Shown here: positions 8,147-34,046 of the stretch, in pieces
Layout: the number at the start of each line of letters is the position of its first letter
How positions within the stretch are numbered: position 1 is the stretch's first letter
NCBI RefSeq assembly: GCF_025165815.1
Contig: NZ_JAFFZE010000016.1
Span: 124,001-188,000, forward strand
Direction of reading: 5' to 3'
Source: Actinophytocola gossypii
GTDB taxonomy: Bacteria > Actinomycetota > Actinomycetes > Mycobacteriales > Pseudonocardiaceae
Length of the DNA stretch: 64,000 nt
Program-made: the position numbers and the translations under genes
The notes under the pieces: generated by a model
Told to the model about the DNA's origin: nothing
The model's database searches: none
The model's input: the letters and a program-made list of their open reading frames with translations, nothing else

Positions 8147-8155
8147 AGGACCGCC

Positions 8156-9658: not shown

Positions 9659-9659
9659 C

Positions 9660-10868: not shown

Positions 10869-11536
10869 CCAAACTCGCTCGGTGGGTGCACCACAAGCTG
10901 GGCGACCCGGACCAGCGGAACTCGTTCTCCAGCCGGCGGCGTTCGGTGCGGTTCGCCGAGCTGATGCGGCGGTTCCCGAACCTGGACGCGATGCGGGTGC
11001 TCGACCTCGGCGGCACCCCGGAGTTCTGGCGCGCGACGCCGGTCCAGCCGAAGTACGTGACGACGGTCAACCTCGACCCCAAGTACGACCCCGAGGAGCC
11101 GTGGCTGGACCACGTGGTCGCCGACGCCTGCGAGCTGTCCACACTGGACAAGTGCCCCGGCGACTACGACCTGGTGGTGTCCAACAGCCTGATCGAGCAC
11201 GTCGGCGGCTACCAGCGCCGCCGGGACTTCGCCGAGGTCGTCACCTCGGCCGCGCCGGCGCACTGGGTGCAGACGCCCAACCGGTACTTCCCGGTCGAGC
11301 CGCACTACGTCGCGCCCGGGTTCCAGTTCCTGCCGGTGCGGACCCGCGCCCGGCTGGTGAGCCGGTGGCCGCTCGCGCACGAGCGGGTCTACACGGTGCC
11401 GGACGCGCTGGCCCAGGTACTCACCATCGACCTGGTCAGCACGGCCGAGCTGCGGCACCTGTTCCCCGGCTCGGACATCTGGCACGAGCGGCTGGCCGGG
11501 CTGTCGAAGTCGATCGTCGCGGTGCGGGCGGGCTGA
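10865..11536 (+). CDS. SAM-dependent methyltransferase (class I-like)
   Basis: 223 residues. The SAM-binding motif I appears as RVLDLGGTPEFW and an acidic motif II as NLDPKYDPEEPW. The stretch YDLVVSNSLIEHVGG is the usual post-motif segment of Methyltransf_11-like enzymes. It has no transmembrane segment. ATG 10865 overlaps the ligase stop (ATGA). In this operon the likely acceptor is a sugar or lipid-linked oligosaccharide, but that is inference from position. The short length and the position just before a glycosyltransferase match capping or decorating methyltransferases of glycan loci. Confidence 0.8.
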   Translation: MTKLARWVHHKLGDPDQRNSFSSRRRSVRFAELMRRFPNLDAMRVLDLGGTPEFWRATPVQPKYVTTVNLDPKYDPEEPWLDHVVADACELSTLDKCPGDYDLVVSNSLIEHVGGYQRRRDFAEVVTSAAPAHWVQTPNRYFPVEPHYVAPGFQFLPVRTRARLVSRWPLAHERVYTVPDALAQVLTIDLVSTAELRHLFPGSDIWHERLAGLSKSIVAVRAG

Positions 11537-11539
11537 GCC

Positions 11540-12733: not shown

Positions 12734-13820
12734 GGCGAGCTACCCGGCGCCGCTGCTGGCGGTGGCGGCGTACGGGCTCGCCGGAACGCGCCCGATGCCG
12801 AAGGAGCCGCTGGACGACGAGGTGTGGAACGCGCTGCTGACCGGGGCGCGGAAGCACCGGGTGCTCGGGCACCTGCGGGCGGCGGTGTCGTCGGGCGCGC
12901 TGCCGGCCACGGACGGGCAGGTGGCGCGGGTACGGGCGGTGCACCGGGCGCTGCTGGTGCGGATGCTGTCGCTGGAGAGCCAGCTGGTGCGGGTGGTGGA
13001 CCTGCTGGCACGGGCCGGCCTGGACACGCGGGTGCTGAAGGGCAGCGCGTACGCGCACCTGGACTACCCGGACCCGGCGCTGCGCTCGTTCATCGACCTG
13101 GACCTGCTGTTCCGGCCGTCCGAGGTGGAGGGCGCGGTGGCGGTGCTCACCTCGGCCGGGTTCACCAGGACGTTGGCCGAACCGCGCCCCGGCTTCGACC
13201 GGCGGTTCGACAAGGGCACGACGTTGCGCGCGGCGGACTTCGAGCTGGACCTGCACCGGACGTTCGTGCTCGGCCCGTGGGGGTTCCGGGTGGACCTCGA
13301 CGCGCTGTGGGCCGACTCGGCGACGTTCGAGCTGGCCGGGCGCCCGGTGACCGCGTTGTCCGCCCCGGACCGGTTCCTGCACGCCTGCTACCACGCCGCC
13401 CTCGGCGACTGGCCGCTGCGGCTCGGCTCCCTGCGGGACGTGGCCCAGCTGCACCCGCGCGACGAGGCCGCCGTACTGGCCCGGGCGCGGTCGTGGGGCG
13501 TCGAGGCGGTGGTCGCCGCGGCGGTGGCCGACTCGACGCGCCTGCTCGGGCTGCCGGTGACCGGGGAGCTGCGCACCTGGGCCCGCGACCACGTGCCGAC
13601 CCGCCGCGAGGAGTCGTGGCTGGCACTGCACACGCACGAGCACAAGACGTTCGCCGCGCAGGCGGTGGCGACCCTGCCGGTGCTCCCCGGCCTGCGTGAC
13701 AAGGCCGCCTACCTGCGGGCCCTGCTGTTCCCGGACAGCGGGTACACGGCCGGGCGGCACGCGTCGCCGCTGTCCCGGTTCCGGCACGGTCTCCGCGACG
13801 CCCGCCGCGGTCACGGCTGA
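12714..13820 (+). CDS. Nucleotidyltransferase-fold protein (NTP_transf_5/PF14907-like)
   Basis: 368 residues from GTG 12714, chosen because GGAGG lies 8 bases upstream (12702-12706); it overlaps the GT4 gene by 20 bases. The central part has LKGSAYAHLDYPDP, then FIDLDLLF (D-x-D about 128-130), then ELDLHRTF, matching the metal-binding layout of nucleotidyltransferase-fold proteins. A helical C-terminus follows (FLHACYHAALGDWPLRL). Proteins of this family occur in RiPP and lasso-peptide clusters, for example beside the kinase in the pseudomycoidin cluster. Here it lies 3 kb from a lasso cluster with an apparent insertion between. It may be a lasso tailoring enzyme or may serve the glycan operon. 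It converges with the next gene, and the two ends overlap by 10 bases. Confidence 0.7.
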   Translation: MRRLCGEASYPAPLLAVAAYGLAGTRPMPKEPLDDEVWNALLTGARKHRVLGHLRAAVSSGALPATDGQVARVRAVHRALLVRMLSLESQLVRVVDLLARAGLDTRVLKGSAYAHLDYPDPALRSFIDLDLLFRPSEVEGAVAVLTSAGFTRTLAEPRPGFDRRFDKGTTLRAADFELDLHRTFVLGPWGFRVDLDALWADSATFELAGRPVTALSAPDRFLHACYHAALGDWPLRLGSLRDVAQLHPRDEAAVLARARSWGVEAVVAAAVADSTRLLGLPVTGELRTWARDHVPTRREESWLALHTHEHKTFAAQAVATLPVLPGLRDKAAYLRALLFPDSGYTAGRHASPLSRFRHGLRDARRGHG

Positions 13821-14599
13821 CGCGCGGCCCACACGGTGCGTTCGGTGCGGACGCCGAGGTCGTCGCGGTTCGGGAGACCGTCGAGCAGGCGGTCCAGCGC
13901 GGCGAGGTCCTCGGCCGGGAGCAGGTCGGCGACGGCGCCGCGGATGCGCCGGAAGCTGGTGAGCGCGTAGCGGCCGACCGCGTCGGAGCGGTCGAGGTCG
14001 ACGGTGACCGTGCGTTCCCCGTCGAGGGTGAACCCGGCCGCGACCAGCTTGACGCCCCAGTCGGCGCCGCGGTGGGGCATGTGCTCGGTGTGGTGGTGCT
14101 CGACCGCGGCGTGGCAGCGTTCCTCCAGGGCGCTCTCCGGGGTGCCCGCCGGCAGGAACCGGGGGAAGCCGGCGAGCTCGACGACGGCGAACAACCCACC
14201 GGGGGCGAGCAGGTCGCGGACGCGGCGCAGCGCGTGGTCGGGGTCGGCCAGGTGGTGCAGGGACGCCGACGCCCAGACCAGGTCGGGGGTGCCGAGGTCC
14301 GGCCAGGTGCCGTCGAGGTCGGCCTGGACGGTCCGCACCCGGTCGGCCACCCCCAGCTCGCCGGCCTTCTCGGCCAGGCGGCGCAGGTGCTCGGCGGACG
14401 AGTCGACGGCCGTGACGTGGGCGTCGGGGAAGCGGGTGAGCAGGGCGAAGGTGCCGGTGCCGGTCCCGGCACCGAAGTCGACGATGTGGCGCGGGCGCGC
14501 GTCGACGGGCAGCCACGCGGTGATGGCCGCGATGTGCTCGGCGAGCACCTCCGCGTCGAGGTCGAGGATGTCCGTCTGGTCGTGCGTGGTGTCGGTCAT
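13811..14599 (-). CDS. Class I SAM-dependent methyltransferase
   Basis: 262 residues from ATG at 14599. Motif I is VDFGAGTGTGTF (residues 40-51), motif II VTAVDSS, and the ASASLHHLADPD segment is typical of Methyltransf_11/25 small-molecule methyltransferases. It is soluble. Longer in-frame extensions upstream run through the intergenic region and are not supported. It lies on the minus strand behind the XRE-cupin regulator with a 94-base gap. It may belong to the same regulator-exporter block and modify or detoxify a small molecule. Its end overlaps the NTP_transf_5 gene by 10 bases in convergent orientation. The substrate is unknown. Confidence 0.8.
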   Translation of the reverse strand: MTDTTHDQTDILDLDAEVLAEHIAAITAWLPVDARPRHIVDFGAGTGTGTFALLTRFPDAHVTAVDSSAEHLRRLAEKAGELGVADRVRTVQADLDGTWPDLGTPDLVWASASLHHLADPDHALRRVRDLLAPGGLFAVVELAGFPRFLPAGTPESALEERCHAAVEHHHTEHMPHRGADWGVKLVAAGFTLDGERTVTVDLDRSDAVGRYALTSFRRIRGAVADLLPAEDLAALDRLLDGLPNRDDLGVRTERTVWAARQP

Positions 14600-14693
14600 G
14601 GCCTCACGGTAGGTCGACCGTGCGCCTCGTGCACGAACCCTTGCCTGTTTGGCAAGGAGGTCACGTGCTGGGCTGCCGAACACGCAAAACCGG

Positions 14694-15251
14694 TCACTCC
14701 TTGTGCCCCCGGCGGGCGTCCCGGTCGAAGATGCCGAGCACGTCGCACGGTCCTCCTTCGACGCCGATCGCGTGCGGGAGCATGGTGGGGAACTCGGCGG
14801 CCTGGTTGGTCTCGATGCGGAGCCGGCGGTTGCCCAGCAGCAGGACGGCGGTACCGGAGAGCACGACCATCCACTCGCGACCCGGGTGAGCACGCATGCG
14901 CGCCGGGTTGTCCGGCGGCGGTTCCGTCATCCGCTGGCGAATGACGATCATGCCGGGCTCGGCCTTGATGGGCCACTGCATGCGCCCGTGCGCGTTGTCG
15001 ATCAGCGGGCTGACGATCACGTCGTCGGTGTCCGTCTCGACGAGCTGGTCGAGCGAGGTGTCCAGGGCCCTGGCGAGGGTGACGAGCTGGTCCAGCGCGA
15101 GACGGCGCTGACCGTTCTCGATCCGGCTCAGCGACGACGGACTGAGCCGCGCGCGCGTCGCCAGTTCCTCCAGCGACCACCCCTGCGCCACCCGGAGAGC
15201 GCGGACGCGTTTGCGCACCAGGCTGTCCAGCTCGTCATCTTCTTGCTTCAT
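14694..15251 (-). CDS. XRE-family transcriptional regulator with C-terminal cupin domain
   Basis: 185 residues. ATG at 15251 gives MKQEDDEL, then a helix-turn-helix (VRALRVAQGWSLEELATRA and LSPSSLSRIENGQRRL). From about residue 105 to 175 a cupin fold follows (HPGREWMVVLSGTAVLLLG, then PTMLPHAIG). Such HTH_3-cupin regulators usually repress a divergent gene and respond to a small ligand. Here the divergent gene is a DHA2-type exporter 72 bases away, and a perfect inverted repeat lies between them and touches this start codon. Autoregulation is therefore likely. The longer frame upstream would include the repeat and is rejected. Confidence 0.85.
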   Translation of the reverse strand: MKQEDDELDSLVRKRVRALRVAQGWSLEELATRARLSPSSLSRIENGQRRLALDQLVTLARALDTSLDQLVETDTDDVIVSPLIDNAHGRMQWPIKAEPGMIVIRQRMTEPPPDNPARMRAHPGREWMVVLSGTAVLLLGNRRLRIETNQAAEFPTMLPHAIGVEGGPCDVLGIFDRDARRGHKE

Positions 15252-15288
15252 AGGCACGAGTGTATGCCCGAGCCGCAAGACGTGCCTA
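15251..15288. promoter_or_regulatory. Perfect 8-bp inverted repeat in the XRE-cupin / MFS divergent promoter (candidate operator)
   Basis: TAGGCACG at 15251-15258 is repeated as its exact reverse complement CGTGCCTA at 15281-15288, with a 22-base spacer. The left arm includes the first base of the regulator's start codon. The right arm lies about 35 bases before the exporter ATG. The spacing puts the arm centres about 30 bp (three helical turns) apart. Binding by the XRE-cupin protein is an inference from position. Confidence 0.5.
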
Positions 15289-15323
15289 GCGTCGTGCCGC
15301 ACGGTCCTACTCGAGAGGAAGAC

Positions 15324-16859
15324 ATGAGCACGATCTCGGACGCGCGTCAACGCCGCTCGACCCTGGTGGCGGTCTGTATCGCCCTGATGGCGGTCATCGC
15401 CTCGGTGACCGGACTGAACGTCGCCCAGCCGGATCTCGCCCTGGCCTTCGGCGCCGGGCAGAGCACGATCCTGTGGATCATCAACAGCTACACCCTCACC
15501 CTCGCCGCGCTGCTGCTGCCGCTCGGCGCGCTCGGCGACCGGCTGGGCCGCAAGCCCGTGCTCCTCGCCGGCCTGGCCGCGTTCGGGGCCGCGAACGTCG
15601 TCGCGAGCCTGGCCCCGTCGGCGGAGGTCCTGCTGGCGGCGCGGGTGCTCAGCGGCGTCGGCGCGGCGATGATCATGCCCGTCACGCTCGCCGTCATCAC
15701 CTCGACCTTCCCCGATGAGGAACGCGGCCGGGCGATCGGCGTGTGGACCGGGGTGGCCGGGGGCGGCGGCATCCTGGGCATGTTCCTCTCGGCCGTGCTA
15801 GTGGACGTGGCGAGCTGGCGCTACCTGTTCGTGCTGCCGGTGGCCCTCGTCGTCGTCGCGTTCGCCATGGCGCGGCGTTCCGTTCCCGACTCGCGCGAGC
15901 GGGCGGGGCGCTCCTTCGACACCGTCGGCTCGCTGACGTCGCTGGTCGCCGTGGTCGGGCTGATCTTCTTCCTCCAGGATGGCCCCGAGCGGGGCTGGAG
16001 CGCGCCGGCGACCCTGGCCGGGCTGCTCGTCGGCGGCCTGGGCACCGTCGGCTTCGTGGTCTGGGAGCTGCGTCACCGGTCCCCGCTGCTGGACGTTCGG
16101 CTCTTCCGCGAGCGCGGCCTGGCGAGCGGGTCCGTGGTGCTCCTGGCGGTCTTCGGCGTCCAGGCGGGGATCTCGGTGGTCCTCTACCCGTTCTTCCAGA
16201 CGGTCTTCGGCTGGTCGGGGCTACTGTCCACGGTGGCGCTGATGCCGATGGCCCTGCTGATGATGGTGACCTCCGGACTCGCCCCTCGGCTGGCCGAGCG
16301 CGTCGGAGCGCGCGCGACCATGGCGGCCGGCGTCGCGCTCGCCGGAGCCGGCCTCGGTCTGATGGCCACCCTCGTCTCCGTCGACGGGGGCTACCTCGCG
16401 ATCCTGCCCGGCGTGCTCGCCATGGGCGTCGGCATGGGCCTGTCCATGCCGCCCGCCACCGAGGCGATCACCGGCGCGCTGCCCCGGGAACGGCAGGGCG
16501 TCGCCTCCGCGCTCAACGACGTCACCCGCGAGTTCGGCACCGCGCTCGGCGTCGCGCTGCTGGGTGCGCTGCTGTCCGCCGGCTACCGGGGCGCCATCGG
16601 CCCTCGGCTCGACGGCTATCCGGACGAGATCGCCGGCCCCGCCCGCGAGGGCATCGCCAACGCCATCAGGGTCGCCGACGGGCCGGAACTGGTCCTGGCC
16701 GCGCAGCAGTCCTTCGTCGACGGGTGGCGGACGGCGATGTGGACCGGGGTCGCCCTGATGGCGGCCCTCCTCGCCTACGTCCTGAGCCGCGGCCCCAGGC
16801 CGCCGGCTCAGCCACGCCTGCTGGAGCAGGGACATCGAGGGGGCGTGCGGGGTGGGTGA
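15324..16859 (+). CDS. DHA2-family MFS drug exporter (14-helix EmrB/QacA type) with altered C-terminus
   Basis: 511 residues; ATG 15324 is preceded by GAGAGGAAG. MFS motif A appears as GDRLGRKPVLLAG, and motif C-like glycines lie in TGVAGGGGILG. About 14 hydrophobic helices place it in the drug:H+ antiporter-2 group. It is divergent from the XRE-cupin regulator, which probably controls it. The last roughly 20 codons, after YVLSRGP, read the antisense strand of the lasso cyclase gene (PPAQPRLLEQGHRGG), and the stop lies inside that gene. The native C-terminus therefore seems to have been replaced at a recombination joint near 16800. This should not affect the transmembrane core. Confidence 0.85.
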   Translation: MSTISDARQRRSTLVAVCIALMAVIASVTGLNVAQPDLALAFGAGQSTILWIINSYTLTLAALLLPLGALGDRLGRKPVLLAGLAAFGAANVVASLAPSAEVLLAARVLSGVGAAMIMPVTLAVITSTFPDEERGRAIGVWTGVAGGGGILGMFLSAVLVDVASWRYLFVLPVALVVVAFAMARRSVPDSRERAGRSFDTVGSLTSLVAVVGLIFFLQDGPERGWSAPATLAGLLVGGLGTVGFVVWELRHRSPLLDVRLFRERGLASGSVVLLAVFGVQAGISVVLYPFFQTVFGWSGLLSTVALMPMALLMMVTSGLAPRLAERVGARATMAAGVALAGAGLGLMATLVSVDGGYLAILPGVLAMGVGMGLSMPPATEAITGALPRERQGVASALNDVTREFGTALGVALLGALLSAGYRGAIGPRLDGYPDEIAGPAREGIANAIRVADGPELVLAAQQSFVDGWRTAMWTGVALMAALLAYVLSRGPRPPAQPRLLEQGHRGGVRGG

Positions 16860-17918
16860 GAGCCAGTTGGCGCGGAGGGCGTCGGGGTCGACGAGGTCGG
16901 GGTCGACGCCGGTGCCGTCCCAGGTGCGGGCGAACTCGCGGGTGTGGCCGCGGAAGACGGCGTTCGCGAACCGGGCCTTGGTGCGGCGCTCCAGCACCTC
17001 GCGGGGCAGCAGGTCGCCGAACAGGGCGCGCATGGCGGAGGTGCGGCCGGTCCAGCCCCAGCGGCCGGCGGCGTGCGCGACGGACGCGACGACGGCCGGC
17101 TCGGCGAACGCCTGGACGTACTCGGCGTCCAGTTCGGACGCCAGGGCCCGCATGGTCGCGTAGCCGATCGTGGCGCAGCGGCGGGTGGCGAACTGCCAGG
17201 TGTTCCGGCCGGCGTGCAGCGCGTACGCGGCCAGGTCGTCGGCGTCGCGGCGGGCCAGGAGTTCCTCGACCTCGGGGCGTAGCCACGGGCGGCGGTAGCG
17301 GGTGCGCAACGCGCCGCGGCGGCGGAACGCGGCCGGGGCGAGCGCGCGGAGGGCGTCGCGGTGGACGGCCGCCGGCACGCGGGTGCGGGCGGCGAGGAGC
17401 TTGGTCAGCGGCGTGATCCGCTTGAGCCCGAACGCCTCGTCGCCGCCCTCGCCGGTGAGCAGGGCGCCGCCGCGGGCCTGGGTCAGCATCCGGTACGTGG
17501 GTGTGAAGTTCGGCGGCCAGACCAGGCCGTGGCGGCGCAGCACACCGGTGCCGACCGGGCCGAGGGGGTCGTGTTCGTCGTGCACGGTCAGCACGATCCG
17601 GTCGGTGACGCCGAGGTGGGACAGCACCCTCCGCTGCCACGCGGACTCGTCGGTGTCGGCGGCGTCCGGATAGGACAGGGTGACCGGGATCGGCGGCGGC
17701 AGGGACTCGCGGCGGGCCAGGGCCACGGCGGCGGCCAGCAGTACCGAGGAGTCGCGGCCGCCGGAGAAGGCCACCAGGCACGGGGTCCTCGCCAGGTGTG
17801 GCAACAGGACGCTGTCGAGCACCTGGCGGGGTGCCGGGTGCTGGCCCGACGGCGGGGGGACCGGGTCGTAGCCGTTGACCCAGCCGCCGGCCACCTCCAG
17901 GGGGTCCATTGTGTACAC
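16221..17918 (-). CDS. Lasso peptide cyclase (asparagine-synthetase-like macrolactam synthetase), read-through C-terminus
   Basis: Lies 56 bases downstream of the lasso precursor. GTG 17918 has GGAG nine bases upstream; ATG 17909 is the alternative. The PP-loop LVAFSGGRDSSVLL (about residue 51) and LTGEGGDEAFG are the AMP-forming asparagine-synthetase motifs that lasso cyclases use to activate the ring Asp/Glu. The family-like sequence ends near SMSLLQQAWLSRR (about residue 369, nucleotide 16810). The frame then runs on for about 196 codons through the antisense of the exporter, to a stop at 16221. The N-terminal glutaminase-like domain (about 200 residues in most cyclases) is essentially absent. 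Whether this shortened, tailed protein is active is uncertain. Confidence 0.72.
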   Translation of the reverse strand: MYTMDPLEVAGGWVNGYDPVPPPSGQHPAPRQVLDSVLLPHLARTPCLVAFSGGRDSSVLLAAAVALARRESLPPPIPVTLSYPDAADTDESAWQRRVLSHLGVTDRIVLTVHDEHDPLGPVGTGVLRRHGLVWPPNFTPTYRMLTQARGGALLTGEGGDEAFGLKRITPLTKLLAARTRVPAAVHRDALRALAPAAFRRRGALRTRYRRPWLRPEVEELLARRDADDLAAYALHAGRNTWQFATRRCATIGYATMRALASELDAEYVQAFAEPAVVASVAHAAGRWGWTGRTSAMRALFGDLLPREVLERRTKARFANAVFRGHTREFARTWDGTGVDPDLVDPDALRANWLSPTPHAPSMSLLQQAWLSRRPGAAAQDVGEEGRHQGDPGPHRRPPPVDEGLLRGQDQFRPVGDPDGVGDALAGGAGDLVRIAVEPRADGAPVAGGQQRTQQRDAERGAELAGDVVERGGDALPFPGQRAGDRLGGGRHGQAHADAHGEHAGQDREVAPVDGDEGGHQTEAGSGERDAGRHGRARSDALGQPRGESGGHHHQQGHRHQRHRGQ

Positions 17919-17974: not shown

Positions 17975-18115
17975 TCACGAGTAGTTGTCGTCGTCGCCGA
18001 AGATCGGCAGGATCCAGGTCAGGTTGTCGGAGGACTCCCCGAACAGGTTGGCCTGGGTCACGTCGGTGAGCGAGCCGAGCGCGGTGAGCTCCGGTGCCTC
18101 GTACGGCTGCCGCAT
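17975..18115 (-). CDS. Lasso peptide precursor (46 residues; predicted paeninodin-like core)
   Basis: ATG 18115 has a strong ribosome site (AAGGAGGTGACC directly before it). An in-frame ATG at 18130 overlaps that site and is less likely. The leader (1-21) fits Y-x2-P-x-L-x3-G-x5-T exactly: Tyr5, Pro8, Leu10, Gly14, Thr20. With Thr at -2 the core is residues 22-46. It starts ANLFGESSD, so Ala1 and Asp9 can form a nine-residue ring, and it continues NLTWILPIF. It ends GDDDNYS, an acidic tail with C-terminal Ser. Paeninodin has the same plan (Ala1-Asp9 ring, acidic tail, C-terminal Ser phosphorylated by a dedicated kinase), and a kinase gene is present 1.8 kb away. The hand-summed monoisotopic mass of the cyclised core is about 2784.3 Da. 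Confidence 0.88.
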   Translation of the reverse strand: MRQPYEAPELTALGSLTDVTQANLFGESSDNLTWILPIFGDDDNYS

Positions 18116-18235
18116 GGTCACCTCCTTCATGGCCGTCGCAGCTGATGCAGGGCCGTTGTCCTGTAGGTCGCCCGACCGGCCGGATCATTACCCTTTTCCT
18201 GTAACGAAAACGGTGGGTGATCGGACGTTCCAGTC

Positions 18236-19975
18236 GTGCGACTGCGACGGTTGGCGACCACTCCGCGCCTGCTCGCGGCCGCCGCCCGCGAGGTCCGCCT
18301 GGCCGACCGGGCCGGCACCGCGGTCGCGTCGGTCTACCAGCTCGTGGGGGCCGTCGCGGCGCTCGGCGTGGTGGCCGCCGGCAAGCTCACCTTCGACGCG
18401 CTGCTGACCCCGGACACCGCCGCGCTCGGGCTCACGCCGGCGCTGCTGCTGCTCGCGCTCGCCACCGCGCTCACCGGGTCGGTCGGTCCACTGCAGACCC
18501 AACAGCACCGGGTGCTCGGCGAGCGGGTGGCGCAGCGGGTGTGGGACCGGCTGCTGGACACCACCGCGCGGGCGGACCTCGTCACCTACGAGTCGACCGG
18601 ATTCGCGACCGCGCTGGAGCGGGTCCAGCAGCACGCGGTGACCCGGCCGTTCACCGTCACCACCTCGCTGCTCGGGCTGACCGGGAGCCTGCTCGGCGTG
18701 GTGGCCATGTCGGCGGTGCTGGTGACCGTTGAGCCGCTGCTGGTGCCGCTGCTGCTGGCCGCCGGGGTGCCGGCGGTGCTGCTGTCCCGGTGGGCGAGCC
18801 GCACCGAGTTCGCGTTCGCGCACCGGCTGACCGCATTGTTCCGCCGCCGCGAGTACCTGCGCCAACTGCTGACCAGGCGGCCCTACGCGGCCGAGGTGCG
18901 GGCGTTCGACGCGGCTCCCGCGCTGCGCGGGCGGCACGAGGAGCTGAACGTCGAGGTCAACGCGGCCCTGCGGGTCCAGGTGCGGCGGCGGCAGGTGATC
19001 GCCGTGCTGTCCACGCTCGGGGTCGCGGCGGCGCTGACCGCGGCGCTGCTGGCGATCGTGCAGCTGGTGCGCTCCGGCCGGATCGGGCTGGCCGACGCCG
19101 GTGCCGCGGCGATCGCCGTGCGGCTGCTGTCCGGGCAGCTCGGGCGGCTGTTCGGCGCGGTCGGCGGGCTGCTGGAGTCGGCGCCGTTCCTGGCCGACCT
19201 GGAGCGGTTCGTCGCGTCCGGACCGGAGCCGGCGCCGAAGGGACGACGGCACCGGCTCGCCGACCGGGTGGCGCTGCGGTCGGTCAGCTTCGCCTACCCC
19301 GGCCAGGACCGGCCCGCGGTCGACGACGTGGACATCGAGGTCCGGGCGGGCGAGGTCGTGGCGCTGGTCGGGGAGAACGGCTCGGGCAAGACGACGCTGG
19401 CGAAGATCGTCGCCGGGCTGTACGACCCGGACTCGGGCGTGCGGGTGTGGGACGGCGAGGCGGTGCCGGCGCCGGACGTGCGGGCGTCGGTCACGGTGGT
19501 CTTCCAGGACTTCGTGCGCTACCAGCTGTCGGTTCGGGACAACATCACCATCAGCGACGCCGGGGCCGACCCGGCCGCGGCGGCGGACGCGGCCCGGCGG
19601 GCCGGCGTGCCGTTGGACCTGGACACCGTGCTCGGCCGCGACCTGGACGAGGGCGTGGACATCTCCGGCGGCCAGTGGCAGCGGGTCGCGCTCGCCCGGG
19701 CGCTGTACCGGGACACGCCGCTGGTCGTGCTGGACGAGCCGACGGCCGCGCTGGACCCGCGCGCGGAGCACGAGCTGTTCACCGACGTGCGCGCGACGCT
19801 GGGCGGGCGGGCCGCGCTGCTGATCTCGCACCGGTTCTCCAGTACCCGGCTGGCGGACCGGATCTACGTGCTGGCCGACGGCCGGGTCGTGGAGTGCGGC
19901 ACGCACGACGAGCTGATGGCCTCGGCCGGCCAGTACGCGGAGCTCTACCGGCTGCAGTCGGCCGCGTACCGCTGA
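18236..19975 (+). CDS. ABC transporter, fused membrane and ATPase domains (probable lasso exporter/immunity, D protein)
   Basis: 579 residues from GTG 18236, divergent from the precursor. The N-terminal half (about 1-330) is an ABC exporter membrane domain of about six helices. The C-terminal half holds Walker A GENGSGKTT, signature ISGGQWQRVALARAL, Walker B LVVLDEPTAALD and the switch ISHRFSS. Lasso clusters normally encode one such half-transporter, which acts as a homodimer to export the mature peptide and protect the producer. It lacks an N-terminal C39 peptidase, as expected because B2 removes the leader. Its end overlaps the kinase gene convergently by 31 bases. Confidence 0.88.
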   Translation: MRLRRLATTPRLLAAAAREVRLADRAGTAVASVYQLVGAVAALGVVAAGKLTFDALLTPDTAALGLTPALLLLALATALTGSVGPLQTQQHRVLGERVAQRVWDRLLDTTARADLVTYESTGFATALERVQQHAVTRPFTVTTSLLGLTGSLLGVVAMSAVLVTVEPLLVPLLLAAGVPAVLLSRWASRTEFAFAHRLTALFRRREYLRQLLTRRPYAAEVRAFDAAPALRGRHEELNVEVNAALRVQVRRRQVIAVLSTLGVAAALTAALLAIVQLVRSGRIGLADAGAAAIAVRLLSGQLGRLFGAVGGLLESAPFLADLERFVASGPEPAPKGRRHRLADRVALRSVSFAYPGQDRPAVDDVDIEVRAGEVVALVGENGSGKTTLAKIVAGLYDPDSGVRVWDGEAVPAPDVRASVTVVFQDFVRYQLSVRDNITISDAGADPAAAADAARRAGVPLDLDTVLGRDLDEGVDISGGQWQRVALARALYRDTPLVVLDEPTAALDPRAEHELFTDVRATLGGRAALLISHRFSSTRLADRIYVLADGRVVECGTHDELMASAGQYAELYRLQSAAYR

Positions 19976-20865
19976 GGCGCCAGCACGGCGTCCAGCAGGT
20001 CGGCGAGCACGCCGTCGGCGAACGGGAGCCCCCACGGGATCGTGGCCTCGAACACCGGGACCCGCTCGACCAGGTCGGCCAGCGACTGGAACGCCGACGC
20101 GGCCGTTGGGCCGTCGGTCCAGCCGAGCACGCGCGGGTAGCGGCTCAGGCCCAGCAGCGCGACCGCCGGACGCAGGCGCCGCACGGCCACCCCCGCCGCC
20201 GCCCGGTCCGGGCGGGGGACGACGCAGGCCGCCAGCGGGAGCGGGCCGCCGGTCCACACCCGAGGGGCCACCGCCAGGCGGCCGTCGGCGGTCTCCCGGA
20301 CGGCGGCGGTCTCGGCCAGGGCGCTGGCGGCCGGCCGCAGGCGGCTCTCGGTGGCGCCCGGGTGCACGACGCCGCCGTCCACCCGGAGCAGGTCGTCGGA
20401 GACGAGCGCGTGGCCGGCCGCGCACAGTGCGGCGGAGAGGGTCGACTTGCCCATGCCGGACGCGCCGACGAACGCCACCGCCCGGCCGTCGACCTCGACC
20501 GCGCTGGCGTGCAGCACGTGCGCGTGCCGCAGCGTCAGGTGCACGGCGAGCAGGGTGCCGGCGATCAGCACCGGCAGCAGGCCCGCGTCGGCGCCGGGGT
20601 GCAGGTGGATGGTCACCTCGGCATCGCCGACGAAGTCGCACAGACCGGGGTAGCGGAGCACGGTCGTGTCCCCGACGCGGGCGAGGGTGTAGAAGACCGA
20701 GCCGTCGGGCCGCAGCACCTCGGCCAGCGGCGGCCCGGGGCGCTCGGCGGGCACCGGACGGTCGGGGCCGCGGCGCAGGACCAGGTCGGGGTGGCCGGAG
20801 CCGGGTGGCAGCGGCAGCTCGACGTCGCTGGCGATCCGCAGGCCGTAGGCGTGGTAGCCGGGCAT
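19945..20865 (-). CDS. HPr-kinase-like lasso peptide kinase (PadeK/ThcoK type)
   Basis: 306 residues; ATG 20865 lies one base after the B2 stop. The N-terminal half (YHAYGLRIASDVELPLP, then D-G-S-V-F-Y) matches the lead-in of HprK-related proteins found in RiPP clusters. The P-loop is VGASGMGKSTLSAAL (about 134-142), followed by HALVSDDLLRVD, the HPr-kinase-like acidic motif. Characterised relatives (PadeK, ThcoK, SyanK) phosphorylate the hydroxyl of a C-terminal Ser on a lasso precursor. The precursor in this cluster ends in Ser after an acidic run, so it is the obvious substrate. The assignment of reaction is by family and context. An unrelated HprK-like function is the main alternative. 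Confidence 0.82.
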   Translation of the reverse strand: MPGYHAYGLRIASDVELPLPPGSGHPDLVLRRGPDRPVPAERPGPPLAEVLRPDGSVFYTLARVGDTTVLRYPGLCDFVGDAEVTIHLHPGADAGLLPVLIAGTLLAVHLTLRHAHVLHASAVEVDGRAVAFVGASGMGKSTLSAALCAAGHALVSDDLLRVDGGVVHPGATESRLRPAASALAETAAVRETADGRLAVAPRVWTGGPLPLAACVVPRPDRAAAGVAVRRLRPAVALLGLSRYPRVLGWTDGPTAASAFQSLADLVERVPVFEATIPWGLPFADGVLADLLDAVLAPQRYAADCSR

Positions 20866-20866
20866 G

Positions 20867-21268
20867 TCAGCGGCCGAGCGGGGCGAAGTCGACGGCGGTG
20901 GGATCGAGCGTGCGGCCGTCGACCTCCAGCCACGAGTGCGCCAGGATCCCGTCCCCGTCACGGCGGACGCCGATGCGCAGGACCGGGGACAGGTGCCGCA
21001 GCCGGTTGCCGACGAGCAGGCAGCGGCGCAGGCAGGTGTCGCCGTGGCGCCAGCGGCGGGTGGCCGCCGAGCAGGCCCGGATCGCGGTCCTGGCGCGGCC
21101 GGGGAGCACCGCGGGCCCGGTCGCCGGCGGATCGCCGCTGTCCAGGTCGGGCACGATGCCGAGGCGGGCGCACACGGTCGGCAGGTCGTGGCGGCGCAGC
21201 ATGGCCTCGACGCGGGCCAGCCGGCAGCAGGCGAGGGCCACCTCGGCCAGGTACCGCGCGCGTCTCAC
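20867..21268 (-). CDS. Lasso peptide leader peptidase B2 (transglutaminase-like cysteine protease)
   Basis: 133 residues. GTG 21268 overlaps the B1 stop (GTGA), which fixes the start; the longer open frame upstream is B1 shadow. GDTCLRRCLLVGNRLR supplies the catalytic Cys (about residue 79) in the context expected for PF13471. LAHSWLEVDG supplies the catalytic His, and the downstream LDPTAVDF carries the Asp. B2 cleaves the leader after the Thr-x motif when guided by B1. The spacing (one base before the kinase) indicates a single B1-B2-K transcript. Confidence 0.88.
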   Translation of the reverse strand: MRRARYLAEVALACCRLARVEAMLRRHDLPTVCARLGIVPDLDSGDPPATGPAVLPGRARTAIRACSAATRRWRHGDTCLRRCLLVGNRLRHLSPVLRIGVRRDGDGILAHSWLEVDGRTLDPTAVDFAPLGR

Positions 21269-21516
21269 CGGACCAGCCGTGCTTCGGTGAGCCGGCCGAC
21301 GAACGCCTCGACGTCCCGGCGGGCGACGTCCGCGTCGACCTCGTACTCGCCGACGATCGTGTCGACGAGCTCGTCGATGGTGCGTTCCTCGCCGAGCAGC
21401 TCGACGATCCGGGTGCCGATGCCGGTGACGGAGAAGTACCGGGAGTCGGGGAGGCTCAGGATGATGGTCTCGTCGCCGATGGTTCTGGCCGAGAGTTCGG
21501 TCGATCGCAGGCGCAT
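21265..21516 (-). CDS. Lasso B1 protein (PqqD-like RiPP recognition element)
   Basis: 83 residues from ATG 21516 (AAAGGA upstream). The PqqD-like winged-helix pattern is clear: an N-terminal strand pair (DETIILSLPDSRYFSVTGIGTRIVELL) and helices EERTIDELVDTIVGEYEVD and RRDVEAFVGRLTEARLV. Discrete B1 proteins bind the leader through its Y-x2-P-x-L motif and present it to B2. It is the first gene of the minus-strand B1-B2-kinase group and lies 20 bases from the divergent PAP2-like frame. Confidence 0.88.
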   Translation of the reverse strand: MRLRSTELSARTIGDETIILSLPDSRYFSVTGIGTRIVELLGEERTIDELVDTIVGEYEVDADVARRDVEAFVGRLTEARLVR

Positions 21517-21536: not shown

Positions 21537-22235
21537 GTGGATTCGGTGGCGCCGCGGCACCCGTTACCGCTGGGAAACGATCGTGACCAGGGCGGCGATT
21601 CACCAGGTGTGCGCACCGACTCGGAACCCACTGCCCGGCCGGTCCCGCTGGCCCGGGTTCCGCTCGCCGTGGTCGCGGTCTGCGCGGCGATCGGGCTCGC
21701 GGTGCTCTGCGTGCTGTTCGCCGGCGAGACGGCCGGGACCTGGTTCGACGCCTGGCTCAGCGCGCGGCTGGTGGAGCTGGGGTCGCCATGGCGTCAGCTC
21801 GCGCTCGTCGTGGACTACACCGCCGAGCCCGTGGGCGGCGCGCTGACGCTCGGCGCGCTCGTCCTGGTGTGCCTGCGGCTCGGGCACCGCAGGGCCGCGG
21901 TACTGGCCGTACTGGGCACGGGCGGCAGCATCGCGTGCACGACGGTACTGAAACCGTTGGTGGGGCGGGAGATCAACGGCGGGTTCCTCGCGTTCCCCAG
22001 TGGGCACACGGCGGCCGCGACCGCCATGGCGCTGGTCGTGATGCTCGTGGTCGCGCGCCGGCTGGTGCCGATCCTGGTCGTCACCGTGGCGGCCGGTACG
22101 GCGATGGCCTGGTCGCAGGTGCTGCTGAACGCGCACTACGCCACCGACACCCTCGGCGGCTTCTGCGCCGCGCTCGCCGTGGTGCCGGCGGTGGCCTGGA
22201 CGATGGACCGGGTCGCCGGCGCGTCTCAGGCGTAG
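21537..22235 (+). CDS. PAP2-superfamily membrane phosphatase-like protein
   Basis: 232 residues if GTG 21537 is used; GTG 21609 is a plausible later start because the first 24 residues lack a family pattern. Five to six helices are visible. The PAP2 motifs are recognisable but weakened: KPLVGREINGG (motif 1, normally K-x6-RP), PSGHTAA (motif 2, intact) and SQVLLNAHYATD (motif 3, normally SR-x5-H-x3-D, here SQ). The acid-base His are present, but two phosphate-binding Arg are changed. It could recycle undecaprenyl pyrophosphate for the glycan pathway, or be unrelated to it. It diverges from lasso B1 and converges on the aminotransferase with a 10-base overlap. Confidence 0.72.
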   Translation: MDSVAPRHPLPLGNDRDQGGDSPGVRTDSEPTARPVPLARVPLAVVAVCAAIGLAVLCVLFAGETAGTWFDAWLSARLVELGSPWRQLALVVDYTAEPVGGALTLGALVLVCLRLGHRRAAVLAVLGTGGSIACTTVLKPLVGREINGGFLAFPSGHTAAATAMALVVMLVVARRLVPILVVTVAAGTAMAWSQVLLNAHYATDTLGGFCAALAVVPAVAWTMDRVAGASQA

Positions 22236-23518
22236 CGGCGGAACACCGGCCGCACCGGGCGGCCGCCCAGCCACGGGGTCGGGTCGTCCGCGTCGAGTGC
22301 CCGCCGGTACACCGCGCACGCGCCGGCCACCACCTCGACGGTGCGGTCGACGTCCTGTTCGGACAGCGCCGCGCTGACCACGAACGACGGCCCCAGCACC
22401 CCGCCGGTGACCAGCTGGCGCAGGAACAGCGTGCGGTACTCCTGGGACGGGCGGCCCGCGTTGTCCAGGGTGGCGAACACGAGGTTGCTCTCCCGCCCGC
22501 GCACCACCACGTGCTCGCCCACGCCGGCGTCGGCGGCCACCGCCCGCACCCCGGCGGCGAGCCGGGCACCCAGCTCGTGCAGCCGCGCGGTGACGCCCTC
22601 GGCGGTGTACGTCTCCTGCACGGCCATCGCGGCGGCCAGCGCGTGGGTCTCGGCGCCGTGCGTGGTGGACAGCAGGAACACCCGCTCCCGGCTGTCCCGC
22701 AGGCCGCCCAGCTCCATCAGGTCGCGGCGGCCGGCGAGCGCCGACACGGCGAACCCGTTGCCGAGCGCCTTGCCGAACGTCGACAGGTCCGGAACCACCC
22801 CGTACAGGCCCTGCGCGCCGGCCTCCGACCAGCGGAACCCGGTGATCATCTCGTCGAAGACGAGCACCACGCCGTGCCGGGTGCACAGCTCGCGCAGGCC
22901 GCGCAGGTAGTCCGGCCGGCCGGTGGCTTCCAGCACCAGGCAGGCGAGGTCGTGGCGGGTGATCAGTTCCTCGGCCGCGGGCAGGTCGCCGTAGGGGAAC
23001 GTGACGGTCAGCTCCGCGACCGCCGACGGGATCCCGGCCGGCATCGCGGTGAGGCCGATGAACCAGTCGTCGGTGGAGAAGAACGGCTGGTCCCGGCAGA
23101 TCCCGACCAGCGCGCGGCCGGTCGCGGCCCTGGCGAGGCGTACGGCGGCGGTGGTGACGTCCGAGCCGTTCTTGGCGAACTTCACCATCTCGGCGGTCGG
23201 CACGGTGGCCAGGAACCGTTGCGCGGCCTCCAGCTCGACCACGCTCGGGCGCACGAAGTTGGCGCCGAGGTCGAGCTGGGCGCGCACGGCCTCGGTGACC
23301 CGCGGGTGCGCGTGCCCGAGGCTGACCGAGCGCAGACCGGAGCCGTACTCGAGGTAGGAGTTGCCGTCGACGTCCCACACGTACGCGCCGCGCCCGTGCG
23401 TGATGACCGGCGCCATGCCCTCCGGGTACTGGTCCTCGCCCTTGGCGTAGGTGTGCGCGCCGCCGGGGACCAGGTCGTGCAGGCGCTTGTTGGCCTCGCG
23501 CGAGTTCGTGAAGTCCAT
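22226..23518 (-). CDS. Class III PLP aminotransferase, glutamate-1-semialdehyde aminomutase-like
   Basis: 430 residues; ATG 23518. Landmarks are VPGGAHTYAKG near the start, GSDVTTAAVRLARAATGR, LVFDEMITGFR (PLP-pyridine Asp), and STFGKALGNG with the Schiff-base Lys. The sequence is GSA-aminomutase-like, but it ends an operon of sugar-nucleotide and glycan genes rather than heme genes. Such enzymes in glycan loci aminate a keto-sugar or a carbonyl side chain. It is the last gene of the eleven-gene minus-strand operon and lies two bases after the epimerase-like gene. Confidence 0.82.
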   Translation of the reverse strand: MDFTNSREANKRLHDLVPGGAHTYAKGEDQYPEGMAPVITHGRGAYVWDVDGNSYLEYGSGLRSVSLGHAHPRVTEAVRAQLDLGANFVRPSVVELEAAQRFLATVPTAEMVKFAKNGSDVTTAAVRLARAATGRALVGICRDQPFFSTDDWFIGLTAMPAGIPSAVAELTVTFPYGDLPAAEELITRHDLACLVLEATGRPDYLRGLRELCTRHGVVLVFDEMITGFRWSEAGAQGLYGVVPDLSTFGKALGNGFAVSALAGRRDLMELGGLRDSRERVFLLSTTHGAETHALAAAMAVQETYTAEGVTARLHELGARLAAGVRAVAADAGVGEHVVVRGRESNLVFATLDNAGRPSQEYRTLFLRQLVTGGVLGPSFVVSAALSEQDVDRTVEVVAGACAVYRRALDADDPTPWLGGRPVRPVFRRYA

Positions 23519-23520
23519 GT

Positions 23521-24066
23521 CTACGAGCCTTTCAGCGCGTCGGCGAGGGTCGGCGCCCGGTTGTCCCGTTCGGACAGCAGGGCGACCGGCAGCGGCCACG
23601 GGATGGCCAGCTCGGGGTCGTCGAACGCGATCGCCACGTCCTCGGCCGGGTCGTGCGGGCGGTCGATCCGGTAGGACACGTCGGCCGGGTCGGTGAGCGC
23701 CTGGAAGCCGTGCGCGCAGCCGGCCGGGACGTACAGGGACACCTGGGTGTCGCCGGACAGCTCGACGTGCAGCTGGTTGCGGTGGGTCGGCGACCCGGGC
23801 CGCAGGTCGACGACGACGTCGAACACGCGACCGGACGAGCAGCGGACGAGCTTGGCCTCGCCGCGCCCGGACCTCAGGTGCATGCCGCGCAGCACGCCGC
23901 GCCGGGAGCGGGACACGCTGTCCTGCGCGAACGCGTCCGGGTCGAGGCCGACCGAGGCGAACACGTCGCGGTCGAAGGTACGGGAGAAGAACCCGCGCTC
24001 GTCGGCGTGCGGGGTCGGCTCGAACAGGAACGCCCCGGCGATCTCGGGCACCGGCCTGGCCTTCAC
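23521..24066 (-). CDS. dTDP-4-dehydrorhamnose 3,5-epimerase-like (RmlC family) sugar epimerase
   Basis: 181 residues, the usual RmlC length. The cupin fold begins with FLFEPTPHADERGFFSRTF. It has the conserved Q-D-S-V-S-x-S-x-x-G-V-L-R-G-M-H pattern, giving the catalytic His, then LYVPAGCAHGFQAL. Enzymes of this family epimerise C3 and/or C5 of a 4-keto nucleotide sugar. ATG 24066 overlaps the pyruvyl-transferase stop (ATGA). No RmlB/RmlD partners are next to it, so it probably works on the product of the NAD-dependent epimerase at 28.8-29.8 kb. Confidence 0.85.
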   Translation of the reverse strand: MKARPVPEIAGAFLFEPTPHADERGFFSRTFDRDVFASVGLDPDAFAQDSVSRSRRGVLRGMHLRSGRGEAKLVRCSSGRVFDVVVDLRPGSPTHRNQLHVELSGDTQVSLYVPAGCAHGFQALTDPADVSYRIDRPHDPAEDVAIAFDDPELAIPWPLPVALLSERDNRAPTLADALKGS

Positions 24067-25229
24067 GCGCGCACCTCCGTCGGCAGGAGCGTGGCCAGGT
24101 GGGCGAACTGCTCGTCGAGCAGCTCACGTTGTTCCTTGGCCCGGACCAGGAGCGTCCCGGTGACCTCGGGCGCGCGCCGCTCCAACTCGGCGACCTGGCC
24201 GAGGACCCGGTCGACGTCGAAGTCGCGGATCGAGTGGCAGTACGCCCCGAGGCCCATGGTGTCCATGAGGACGTCGTTCTTCGCGGCGTAGCCGAGCGAC
24301 ACGGTCGGCCGGCCGAGCTTGAGCGCGCACAGCACGTTGTGGAAACGGCTGGCGACCACCACGTCCACCCCGGCCAGCTCGCCCAGCAGCTCGTCCAGGG
24401 TGGACACCTCGGCGGCGGTGACCGGCAGGTCGGCCATGACCTCGTCGACCACCGCCGAGTCGAGCCGGTCCCCGACGAACAGCCGCACGCTCCGGCCGTC
24501 CTCGACCAGCCGCCGCACCAGCGCCTTGACCTTCGCCAGGTAGTCGGCGTGGATCTCCTCGGCCCGCGCCCGGTCGTCCGGCCCGCCCCGGTAGGCCATC
24601 ACGCCGACCCCGACGCACCCGGTGTCGGCCCGGCCGTCCGGGGTGGGCAGCGCGAACGCGAGGTCCGGGTAGACGCGGTCGCGGGACACGTCGACGCCCA
24701 TGGCGGCCAGCGCGTCCCGGGACCGGGCGTCCCGATAGGACCGGAACGCGGCCAGCCGGGCGGCGCGGGTGACCAGCCAGCGGATGGCGCGGTCGCGGAT
24801 CGGCCCGGCACCGACGCTGACCAGCGCCACCGGTGTGCCGAACAGCCGCCCGGACAGGCACAGCAGGAACAGGGAGTACGGGAACCCCCAGGGCCGCAAC
24901 GGAAGCGTGGCCTCCAACACGCCCATGCCGGGCACGATCACCAGGTCGTGCCGGCGTACCCAGGCCGCGGTGCGCACCACCTCGCCCAGCTTCCCGGCGA
25001 CCTTCGCCACGGCCGAGCGGACCCCGGACGCGGTGCGGAACTCGGTGTCCCGGTACAGCGCGGTGGCCTCGATCCCGTAGGTGGCCCGCACCCACTCCGG
25101 GCCGCCGCACAGCGCGTCGATCCGCGCGTCCGGGTGGGCGGCGCCCAGGTGGTCCAGCATGGCGCGCAGGGAGCCGTCGTTGCCGAGGTTGCCGGAGCCG
25201 AGCAGCCCGAACAGGCCGATCCGGGTCAC
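24063..25229 (-). CDS. Polysaccharide pyruvyl transferase family protein
   Basis: 388 residues from GTG 25229, which overlaps the GT2 stop (GTGA). The N-terminus VTRIGLFGLLGSGNLGNDGSL and the later VVASRFHNVLCALKLGRPTVSLGYAAKND are the two diagnostic blocks of the PS_pyruv_trans family. These enzymes add a pyruvate ketal from phosphoenolpyruvate to a sugar, giving an acidic glycan; some relatives are structural paralogues with other jobs. It has no membrane helix. The operon context agrees with decoration of the repeat unit. Confidence 0.85.
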   Translation of the reverse strand: MTRIGLFGLLGSGNLGNDGSLRAMLDHLGAAHPDARIDALCGGPEWVRATYGIEATALYRDTEFRTASGVRSAVAKVAGKLGEVVRTAAWVRRHDLVIVPGMGVLEATLPLRPWGFPYSLFLLCLSGRLFGTPVALVSVGAGPIRDRAIRWLVTRAARLAAFRSYRDARSRDALAAMGVDVSRDRVYPDLAFALPTPDGRADTGCVGVGVMAYRGGPDDRARAEEIHADYLAKVKALVRRLVEDGRSVRLFVGDRLDSAVVDEVMADLPVTAAEVSTLDELLGELAGVDVVVASRFHNVLCALKLGRPTVSLGYAAKNDVLMDTMGLGAYCHSIRDFDVDRVLGQVAELERRAPEVTGTLLVRAKEQRELLDEQFAHLATLLPTEVRA

Positions 25230-29830: not shown

Positions 29831-29833
29831 GGC

Positions 29834-33964: not shown

Positions 33965-34046
33965 AGTGGTTCCCCCCCAGCCGCGCACATACCGACGCGG
34001 CGGGTTGAGGGCATCCCCGAGAGCCCGTACCTGTCCGACTCGCCCA

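Follow-up and report, generated by a model that had tools for sequence, protein, structure and literature searches.

A probable actinobacterial branch of kinase-bearing lasso peptides lodged in a polysaccharide-assembly locus of Actinophytocola gossypii

The lasso gene set and its precursor

Inspection of the window, the 64,000-nucleotide stretch of Actinophytocola gossypii DNA analysed here, revealed a full lasso-peptide gene set composed of a 46-residue precursor (A), B1, B2, an HprK-like peptide kinase (K), an ABC exporter (D) and a cyclase (C). The precursor gene lies at 17975–18115 on the minus strand (leader 18053–18115, core 17978–18052, stop codon 17975–17977), with the cyclase at 16221–17918 (minus), recognised by Pfam PF00733 only, and the exporter at 18236–19975 (plus; NCBIfam and Pfam profiles). 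As the initial annotation had stated, the kinase gene (19945–20865) adjoins those of the transglutaminase-like leader peptidase B2 (20867–21268; NF033537, 49.3 bits, cut-off 33) and the PqqD-type leader-binding protein B1 (21265–21516; Pfam PqqD, 60.9 bits, cut-off 23.4), all on the minus strand, and a PAP2 phosphatase gene is found at 21612–22235 (plus). The profile searches recovered the B1, B2 and ABC exporter of a class II lasso cluster. The span first proposed, 17975–20865, omits B2, B1, the cyclase and N, a nucleotidyltransferase of the NTP_transf_5 family (12732–13820, plus; PF14907, 8.8e-36); a methyltransferase (minus), an HTH-cupin regulator (minus) and an MFS gene (plus) at 13811–16859 lie between N and C.

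The precursor reading frame (17975–18130, minus) encodes 51 residues when counted from its first ATG. The Shine-Dalgarno-like sequence AAGGAGGTGACC (18127–18116, minus), with one match in the window where 0.02 were expected by chance, directly precedes the second ATG (18115), so the 46-residue form proposed initially is the likely one and the longer one was set aside. Its leader fits YxxPxLxxxGxxxxxT, as originally described, and matches the lasso leader profile NF033521 (24.8 bits, cut-off 19); the leader Tyr, Pro, Gly and Thr-Gln are invariant across 16 aligned precursors, and cleavage would follow the T-x. Class II lasso peptides are defined by an acidic residue at ring position 7–9 and a core free of Cys, and the 25-residue core (A1 to S25) has Asp9 and no Cys. 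The assignment of Ala1, Asp9 and a C-terminal Ser is borne out by the alignment, in which Asp9 and the terminal Ser are invariant. The computed monoisotopic mass of the cyclised core is 2784.26 Da, agreeing with an earlier hand-summed 2784.3 Da, and 2864.22 Da with one phosphate. Two other features require correction: the tail, thought to be unusually hydrophobic, follows a family trait with the consensus NLTW..PILGD, and the core, thought to resemble no known lasso peptide, has close relatives encoded in other Pseudonocardiaceae genomes, the occurrence in other genera ruling out a unique core.

The polysaccharide locus and the nucleotidyltransferase

Genes of a conserved Wzy-type polysaccharide locus flank the lasso set on both sides. 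The left arm (2101–12733, plus) encodes an Asn synthase with an amidotransferase domain (2101), an oxidoreductase (4020), a heparinase-like protein (6197), a beta-helix protein (8156), Wzy_C (9660) and a group 1 glycosyltransferase (11540). The right arm (22226–27681, minus) encodes a class-III aminotransferase (22226), a dTDP-sugar epimerase (23521), a polysaccharide pyruvyl transferase (24063), a glycosyltransferase 2 (25226) and a flippase-like membrane protein (26296), which was assigned by inspection and has no Pfam match at 1e-5. Farther out (28814–33970, minus) are an epimerase, a PIG-L deacetylase, a nucleotidyl transferase (20.5 bits, just below the cut-off of 21.2) and a Bac_transf initiating sugar transferase (32492). 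The presence of the kinase and nucleotidyltransferase lasso system in one polysaccharide locus is conserved across Pseudonocardiaceae genera; Alphaproteobacteria, Clostridia and a haloarchaeon likewise have kinase-bearing lasso clusters with polysaccharide genes next to them. Marker genes of the window's locus were missing at 38 kinase-less lasso loci, save for an epimerase at two; the marker profiles represent the window's own polysaccharide genes, and other sugar genes in the controls or distant loci could escape them. The initial annotation named neither the N gene nor this locus, so the final product may exceed a phosphopeptide.

N has a nucleotidyltransferase fold with weak resemblance to FKRP, an enzyme that uses CDP-ribitol to add ribitol-phosphate to a sugar chain bearing a phosphate. 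In 249 genomes N was found in all 21 that have K and in two of the 228 others, a nearly perfect correspondence that includes genera with either gene in only some species. N and K share a contig within 8.1 kb in 19 of the 21; in the other two, the draft genomes G094 and G190, they fall on different contigs. In eight of the 14 relatives with a measured gap, the N match is 0–100 bp from a match to the C1-type cyclase. Among 26 kinase-bearing loci, a set that shares many genomes with the K-genome loci and is thus not independent of them, N was absent from the stretch around five, two stretches reaching a contig end less than 10 kb away on one side. Of three Bacillota plasmid kinase loci, two (L129, L130) had no match to the N profile and the third (L173, Butyrivibrio) carries two PF14907 genes. 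One metagenome-assembled genome (G132) has K, B1, B2 and N; a cyclase of this type was not found genome-wide, nor were A, C and D between K and N.

These data bear on the possibility that the lasso peptide is phosphorylated but N works in polysaccharide synthesis and the two gene sets are merely neighbours, which we regard as a real but lesser prospect. The window's N lies on the strand opposite to A, C and K and comes directly after a glycosyltransferase gene, and genome G113 has a polysaccharide locus with an intact N, no lasso gene in the surrounding 20 kb and no cyclase of this type genome-wide, so N may serve the polysaccharide. Against such a division, N follows K over the 249 genomes; it lies 284–366 bp from K in Tessaracoccus (L105, L111) and Smaragdicoccus (L108), at loci with no polysaccharide marker above 100 bits within 10 kb; and PF14907 genes are found near the kinase-bearing lasso genes of Butyrivibrio, Azospirillum oryzae and Halopiger. 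On balance, N acting on the lasso peptide is somewhat more probable than not.

The cyclase, the kinase and the terminal serine

The 565-residue cyclase is Asn-synthetase-like (PF00733, 62.4 bits, cut-off 21) and short at its N-terminal side, as in the rest of the actinobacterial branch, where there are often two precursor/cyclase pairs per kinase. Its SGGxDS motif is at residue 52, compared to 225–349 preceding residues in kinase-less relatives; the missing N-terminal part is presumably the amidotransferase-like domain. The window copy lacks its usual stop codon, its frame overrunning the expected end by about 190 codons, antisense to the MFS gene, so its activity in A. gossypii is uncertain and the copy may be impaired. 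A decaying cluster that makes nothing is unlikely. It would account for the missing stop beside the methyltransferase-regulator-MFS block, whose methyltransferase and regulator did not turn up in the 8–15.5 kb around 20 relatives, and decay does occur elsewhere: G049 retains B1, a fragment of C and an N interrupted by two stops. Against this, the part of the cyclase common to relatives (about 16791–17918) aligns with six of them through their normal end, the frames of the other lasso genes and N are intact, and K and N retain their invariant residues.

K fell short of the curated cut-offs that Pfam (Hpr_kinase_C, 30.2, cut-off 33.3) and NCBIfam (TIGR00679, 32.6 bits, cut-off 240) set for HprK, making "HprK-like" the correct term and "HprK" not. 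With TIGR00679, five full-length true HPr(Ser) kinases gave 339–373 bits and a sixth, shorter one 203.5. Membership of HprK-related kinase A was likewise rejected (TIGR04352, 45.3 bits, cut-off 200). The fold model has a pLDDT of 95.5, its nearest folds being PEPCK and then HPr kinase. His119, the P-loop (GASGMGKS, 134–141) and Asp157-Asp158 are all present, with H119, G134, GKS 139–141 and D157–D158 invariant in sets of 21 and of 33 sequences, in agreement with the catalytic motif reported for lasso kinases, BsfK among them (PMC10368454). In a tree of 43 rows, the 26 actinobacterial K rows fall on one side of a branch (86/97) and five true HPr(Ser) kinases stand apart (100/100). By sequence, K thus groups with lasso-associated kinases, and profile score and tree together rule out a metabolic HPr kinase.

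We also compared the last residue of precursors at loci with and without the kinase. Ser is terminal in 29 of 29 intact precursors at kinase-bearing loci of this family, a count that excludes the second, frameshifted precursor of L049, as against one of 21 at kinase-less lasso loci, a contrast given Fisher p-values that ignore shared ancestry. The G-type precursors end in Ser in all 10 intact cases, and those retained from further kinase loci in 12 of 13. Precursors were chosen by leader patterns that differ among harvests, none of which fixes the last residue. The main harvest kept 28 of 47 rows, dropping 11 of 39 from L033–L052 and all eight from L053–L061 that had no lasso-like leader or place; the further kinase loci kept 13 of 23. 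For the control, 20 of 38 loci supplied the 21 rows retained out of 28, the other 18 having no usable precursor; the control loci are better-scoring B2 matches and hence non-random, one (L165) being another locus of a kinase-bearing genome and one (L170) spanning only 10.9 kb. The control rules out a terminal Ser by chance. Phosphorylation of another residue or substrate, with the Ser conserved otherwise, is improbable, for while BsfK, a related kinase, acts on core Ser3 (PMC10368454) and the window core offers S7, S8, T12 and Y24, the terminal Ser is the sole invariant Ser of the aligned A-type precursors and recurs in the G-type and further sets.

Relation to known systems and proposed pathway

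According to reviews, PadeK acts on the terminal Ser of its precursor and PsmN adds hexose to the phosphate (PMC9266682, PMC8498205), and the purpose of lasso-peptide phosphorylation is described as unknown (PMC9266682; for paeninodins PMC13381572). The window system resembles paeninodin (PadeA/PadeK, Paenibacillus) and the ThcoK and SyanK systems in its lasso genes, HprK-like kinase and terminal Ser, and paeninodin also in the acidic tail and predicted Ala1-Asp9 ring noted initially. Placement is shared too, since paeninodin-type clusters of Bacilli occur in capsule loci according to a 2026 study, which calls paeninodins restricted to Bacillota and W nearly invariant in the WxxP leader of Bacillota paeninodin-like precursors (PMC13381572). 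The window leader has YxxP and not WxxP, so we do not file the peptide as a paeninodin; the short cyclase and actinobacterial host differ as well, and K forms its own group in a tree that holds two Bacillota plasmid kinases and not PadeK. Pseudomycoidin (PsmK and PsmN, Bacillus), compared here by gene arrangement, likewise has a kinase and a nucleotidyltransferase in one cluster. In Firmicutes, as a review describes it, the nucleotidyltransferase is between B2 and D, whereas N is beyond the cyclase on the other strand. The linear polyphosphorylated peptides of Bacillota share an HprK-like kinase, an NTP transferase, an RRE and polysaccharide loci, but have no cyclase and employ a signal-peptidase-like protease, where the window has a cyclase and B2 (PMC13381572). 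The BsfK cluster of Bradymonas (PMC10368454) combines lasso genes, kinase, nucleotidyltransferase and the same catalytic motif, but its precursor ends in Asp and the window precursor in Ser. The literature searched, mostly titles, abstract openings and passages, yielded no description of an actinobacterial kinase-bearing lasso cluster.

Taken together, we consider it likely that the cluster represents an actinobacterial branch of kinase-bearing, paeninodin/pseudomycoidin-like lasso peptides, lodged in a polysaccharide-assembly locus. The initial reading of a C-terminally phosphorylated nine-ring lasso peptide remains the best and is well supported by the intact kinase motif, the tree separation and the invariant Asp9 and terminal Ser. 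From sequence we infer a pathway in which B1 would bind the YxxP leader, K would phosphorylate the still linear precursor on its C-terminal Ser, B2 would cleave after Thr-Gln, the short cyclase would join Ala1 to Asp9 in a nine-residue ring and D would export the lasso peptide; the terminal-Ser phosphorylation is very probable, and so, to the same degree, is the Ala1-Asp9 ring. Afterwards, or before threading, N may attach a sugar or other NDP-borne group via the phosphate, as reported for PsmN in pseudomycoidin. Far more speculatively, and quite doubtfully, the phosphate could be a handle by which N links the peptide, via a phosphodiester, to a sugar made by the surrounding polysaccharide locus.

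Since the pairing recurs in relatives, the lasso peptide may belong to the sugar coat of the cell or act upon it. If the phosphodiester reading were true, a surface polysaccharide would carry the peptide covalently, as a component or as a cap, and such use may extend to the kinase-bearing lasso clusters of Alphaproteobacteria, Clostridia and a haloarchaeon. The conserved pairing with the polysaccharide locus, the same-family control and the neighbourhoods in other phyla make a link between phosphorylated lasso peptides and cell-surface glycans testable in named Actinophytocola, Amycolatopsis and Prauserella strains.

The lasso cluster and its kinase

The lasso cluster with an adjoining kinase proposed in the initial annotation was borne out, and B1, B2, K, D, A and C are all present in the window. 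The leader-binding protein B1 (21516-21265, minus strand) and the leader peptidase B2 (21268-20867, minus) overlap, the HprK-like kinase K (20865-19945, minus) starts one base after B2, the ABC exporter D is encoded on the plus strand (18236-19975), and the precursor A (18115-17975, minus) is followed by the cyclase C (17918-16221, minus). The precursor was set at 46 amino acids because a Shine-Dalgarno-like stretch lies immediately 5' of its second ATG; its core is ANLFGESSDNLTWILPIFGDDDNYS, with a predicted Ala1-Asp9 ring and a computed mass of 2784.26 Da when cyclised, in agreement with the earlier estimate of about 2784.3 Da.

K scored 30.2 against Pfam Hpr_kinase_C, 45.3 against TIGR04352 and 32.6 against TIGR00679, under the curated cut-offs of 33.3, 200 and 240, respectively. 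A PDB sequence search with K returned HPr kinase over the P-loop region only (E 2e-4), and the top folds for its model (pLDDT 95.5) were PEPCK (E 1e-7) and then HPr kinase (E 2e-4). The motif residues are invariant in sets of 21 and 33 sequences. In the kinase tree (43 rows), the actinobacterial K sequences form a single group (86/97), and a second group (98/97) holds nine kinases of other phyla, encoded at lasso or lasso-like loci that were not all checked for a full lasso set. Five true HPr(Ser) kinases are separate (100/100); the tree does not place K with metabolic HprK, the outcome that the initial annotation gave as refuting its reading.

A search of 249 Pseudonocardiaceae genomes with K gave 21 strong matches (E 6e-59 or better, window included) and 12 weak ones. 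Within the 8-15.5 kb taken round each of the 20 other strong matches, every locus has K, B1 and B2, whereas a cyclase and an exporter were found in 19 each, with neither seen in L034 (the exporter of L050 is partial, at the edge). Nine of the weak matches were opened (11-13 kb) and no B1, B2 or C was seen in any. Three loci of the same family (L054, L055 and L059) encode weakly K-like P-loop proteins (GPRGAGKT), with no B1, B2 or cyclase match in the 13-kb stretches fetched.

Precursors and cyclases

All 29 intact precursors read at kinase-bearing loci of the family end in Ser, 19 of them resembling that of the window (A-type, window included) and 10 being intact representatives of a second type (G-type). 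The control was a set of 38 lasso loci from this family that lack the kinase, and only one of the 21 precursors read at 20 of these ends in Ser (L149). Of the 13 precursors kept from additional K loci (in one Pseudonocardia, other Actinobacteria and other phyla), 12 have a terminal Ser, the exception, L117, ending Ser-Asp. Across 16 aligned A-type precursors, three near-copies (L042, L046 and L047) being left out, the invariant residues are Tyr, Pro, Gly and Thr-Gln in the leader and Asp9, a single Gly of the tail and the C-terminal Ser in the core; an Arg and a Pro close to the start are likewise invariant.

The window-type cyclase, C1, occurs in 18 of the 20 relatives, and the A-type precursor in the same 18. 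A second cyclase type, C2, with 38-45% identity to the window's C, occurs in 11 (L037-L042, L045-L047, L049 and L051), which carry two precursors and two cyclases, except for L051, where only C2 and a G-type precursor are found. The G-type precursor is intact in 10 of these loci and frameshifted in L049, and a pattern search found none in the nine relatives lacking C2. Since C1 tracks the A-type and C2 the G-type across the 20 relatives, each precursor appears to have a cyclase of its own, the single K, B1, B2 and D being common to both pairs. Cores from Erythrobacter and from a Paracoccus plasmid, which likewise end in LTFS, are similar to the G-type cores (e.g. GQSQGSRLDADFAAGTIFGDLTFS).

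In the window's C the SGGxDS motif stands at residue 52, counted from the probable start, and the Pfam match of C is to Asn_synthase only; a separate Asn synthase in the window (at 2101) has amidotransferase and synthase domains. Counted from the farthest upstream start, 46-148 residues precede the motif in 30 of 33 cyclase frames from 28 actinobacterial kinase-bearing loci (138 in the window), and 352-772 in three second cyclases whose frame stays open upstream; the pattern used for this count recognised no cyclase in L087, L103 or L110. With a looser pattern, 225-349 residues were counted in 32 of the 38 kinase-less loci, and no cyclase was recognised in six. Where kinase-associated cyclases were seen in other phyla they are long (L118 and L120; others are annotated at 632-646 amino acids), and the actinobacterial MAG locus L103 also has a long Asn-synthase-like frame. 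A narrow literature search found no report of a short lasso cyclase. The cyclase ends near residue 376 in six relatives, and the window frame overruns this usual end by ~190 codons (16221-16859), antisense to an MFS gene; product formation by this strain is in doubt because the usual stop is missing. A methyltransferase-regulator-MFS block lies between the nucleotidyltransferase gene N and C, and neither the methyltransferase nor the regulator turned up in the sequence fetched round the 20 relatives.

The nucleotidyltransferase gene and the polysaccharide locus

The phospho-lasso reading of the initial annotation is supported as far as sequence goes; it was too narrow in leaving out N (12732-13820, PF14907) and the polysaccharide locus. 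At E 1e-20, N was found in 23 of the 249 genomes, namely all 21 with K, plus G113 and G049. G113 (L153) has an intact N frame and keeps the polysaccharide locus, with no lasso genes seen, and in G049 (L154) N has two stops and B1 and a C fragment remain in the same polysaccharide locus. In 19 of the 21 K genomes N and K share a contig and lie at most 8.1 kb apart (N is on another contig in G094 and G190), and the matched part of N is 0-100 bp from that of C1 in 8 of 14 named loci measured. Among the named loci L086-L111, N is inside the fetched stretch in 21 of 26, the others being L088, L104, L106, L107 and L110; a gap of 284-366 bp separates N and K in Tessaracoccus (L105, L111) and Smaragdicoccus (L108). 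Pfam confirmed PF14907 in all seven distant loci tested (L103, L105, L108, L109, L111, L114 and L120). A Lys-Gly, an Arg, an Asp-x-Asp, one Gly and one His are invariant in 26 N sequences; its fold model (pLDDT 86.6) gave ANT(2'')-Ia, LnuA and MenT1 as top folds and FKRP lower, all at E >0.001, resemblances that we take as a lead only. In a MAG of the family (G132, L087 6500-12330), B1, B2, K and N are present, with no precursor, cyclase or exporter found between K and N and no such cyclase in the whole genome.

Both flanks in the window encode Wzy_C, glycosyltransferases, sugar epimerases, a pyruvyl transferase, an aminotransferase and Bac_transf. Using 11 marker families from this locus, 16 of the 17 named Pseudonocardiaceae loci L086-L102 have at least six above 100 bits in the fetched stretch (two in L099). 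None of the 38 kinase-less loci yielded an N, aminotransferase, pyruvyl transferase, flippase, Wzy, GT1, GT2, heparinase, PAP2, Bac_transf or beta-helix marker, and an epimerase match was found in two (L164 and L167). Outside the Pseudonocardiaceae set, markers above 100 bits are mostly absent (one in L103, none in L104-L111, L104 spanning only 8 kb); L106 has other sugar genes by Pfam, and L109 polysaccharide-export-like ABC genes by weak Pfam matches.

Other phyla and the likely product

K-like matches on plasmids came from 14 records, of which 13 were opened at one place each (flanks 7-12 kb). Lasso genes are annotated in eight of the 13 (L130, L132, L173-L177 and L179); L131, L178 and L180 have no annotated lasso genes, and L129 and L181 no annotation at all. 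Of the eight with lasso genes, seven also have annotated polysaccharide genes in the flank shown, the signal being weak in Priestia L130 (galU and a short polysaccharide protein) and limited to galE in Thalassobaculum L174. Four of the eight (L173, L174, L176 and L177) carry an annotated nucleotidyltransferase, and PF14907 was confirmed in L173 (two genes), L176 and the archaeal L177. The latter, on Halopiger xanaduensis plasmid pHALXA01 (8734-16474), combines archaeal lasso genes and an HprK-like kinase match with PF14907, a flippase and a glycosyltransferase. The alphaproteobacterial kinase-bearing clusters L174, L175, L176 and L179 lie beside annotated sulfotransferase or 2OG-Fe(II) oxygenase genes, possibly for further tailoring.

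In published work, paeninodin-like and LPP clusters with an HprK-like kinase and an NTP transferase are described in capsule loci of Bacilli, paeninodins being called restricted to Bacillota (PMC13381572), and rumen Firmicutes lasso clusters are described with HPr kinase, nucleotidyltransferase and glycosyltransferase genes (PMC7533575; further sources, PMC10368454, PMC9266682, PMC8498205 and PMC9723273). The link between lasso peptides and polysaccharides is thus already known in Bacillota. The features that seem to be new, within the literature searched, are the form that this link takes in Actinobacteria, the short cyclase, and the arrangement in two precursor-cyclase pairs. Judged from the genes, the product is likely a phosphorylated lasso peptide encoded inside a polysaccharide locus, and this predicted phospho-lasso product is probably further decorated.
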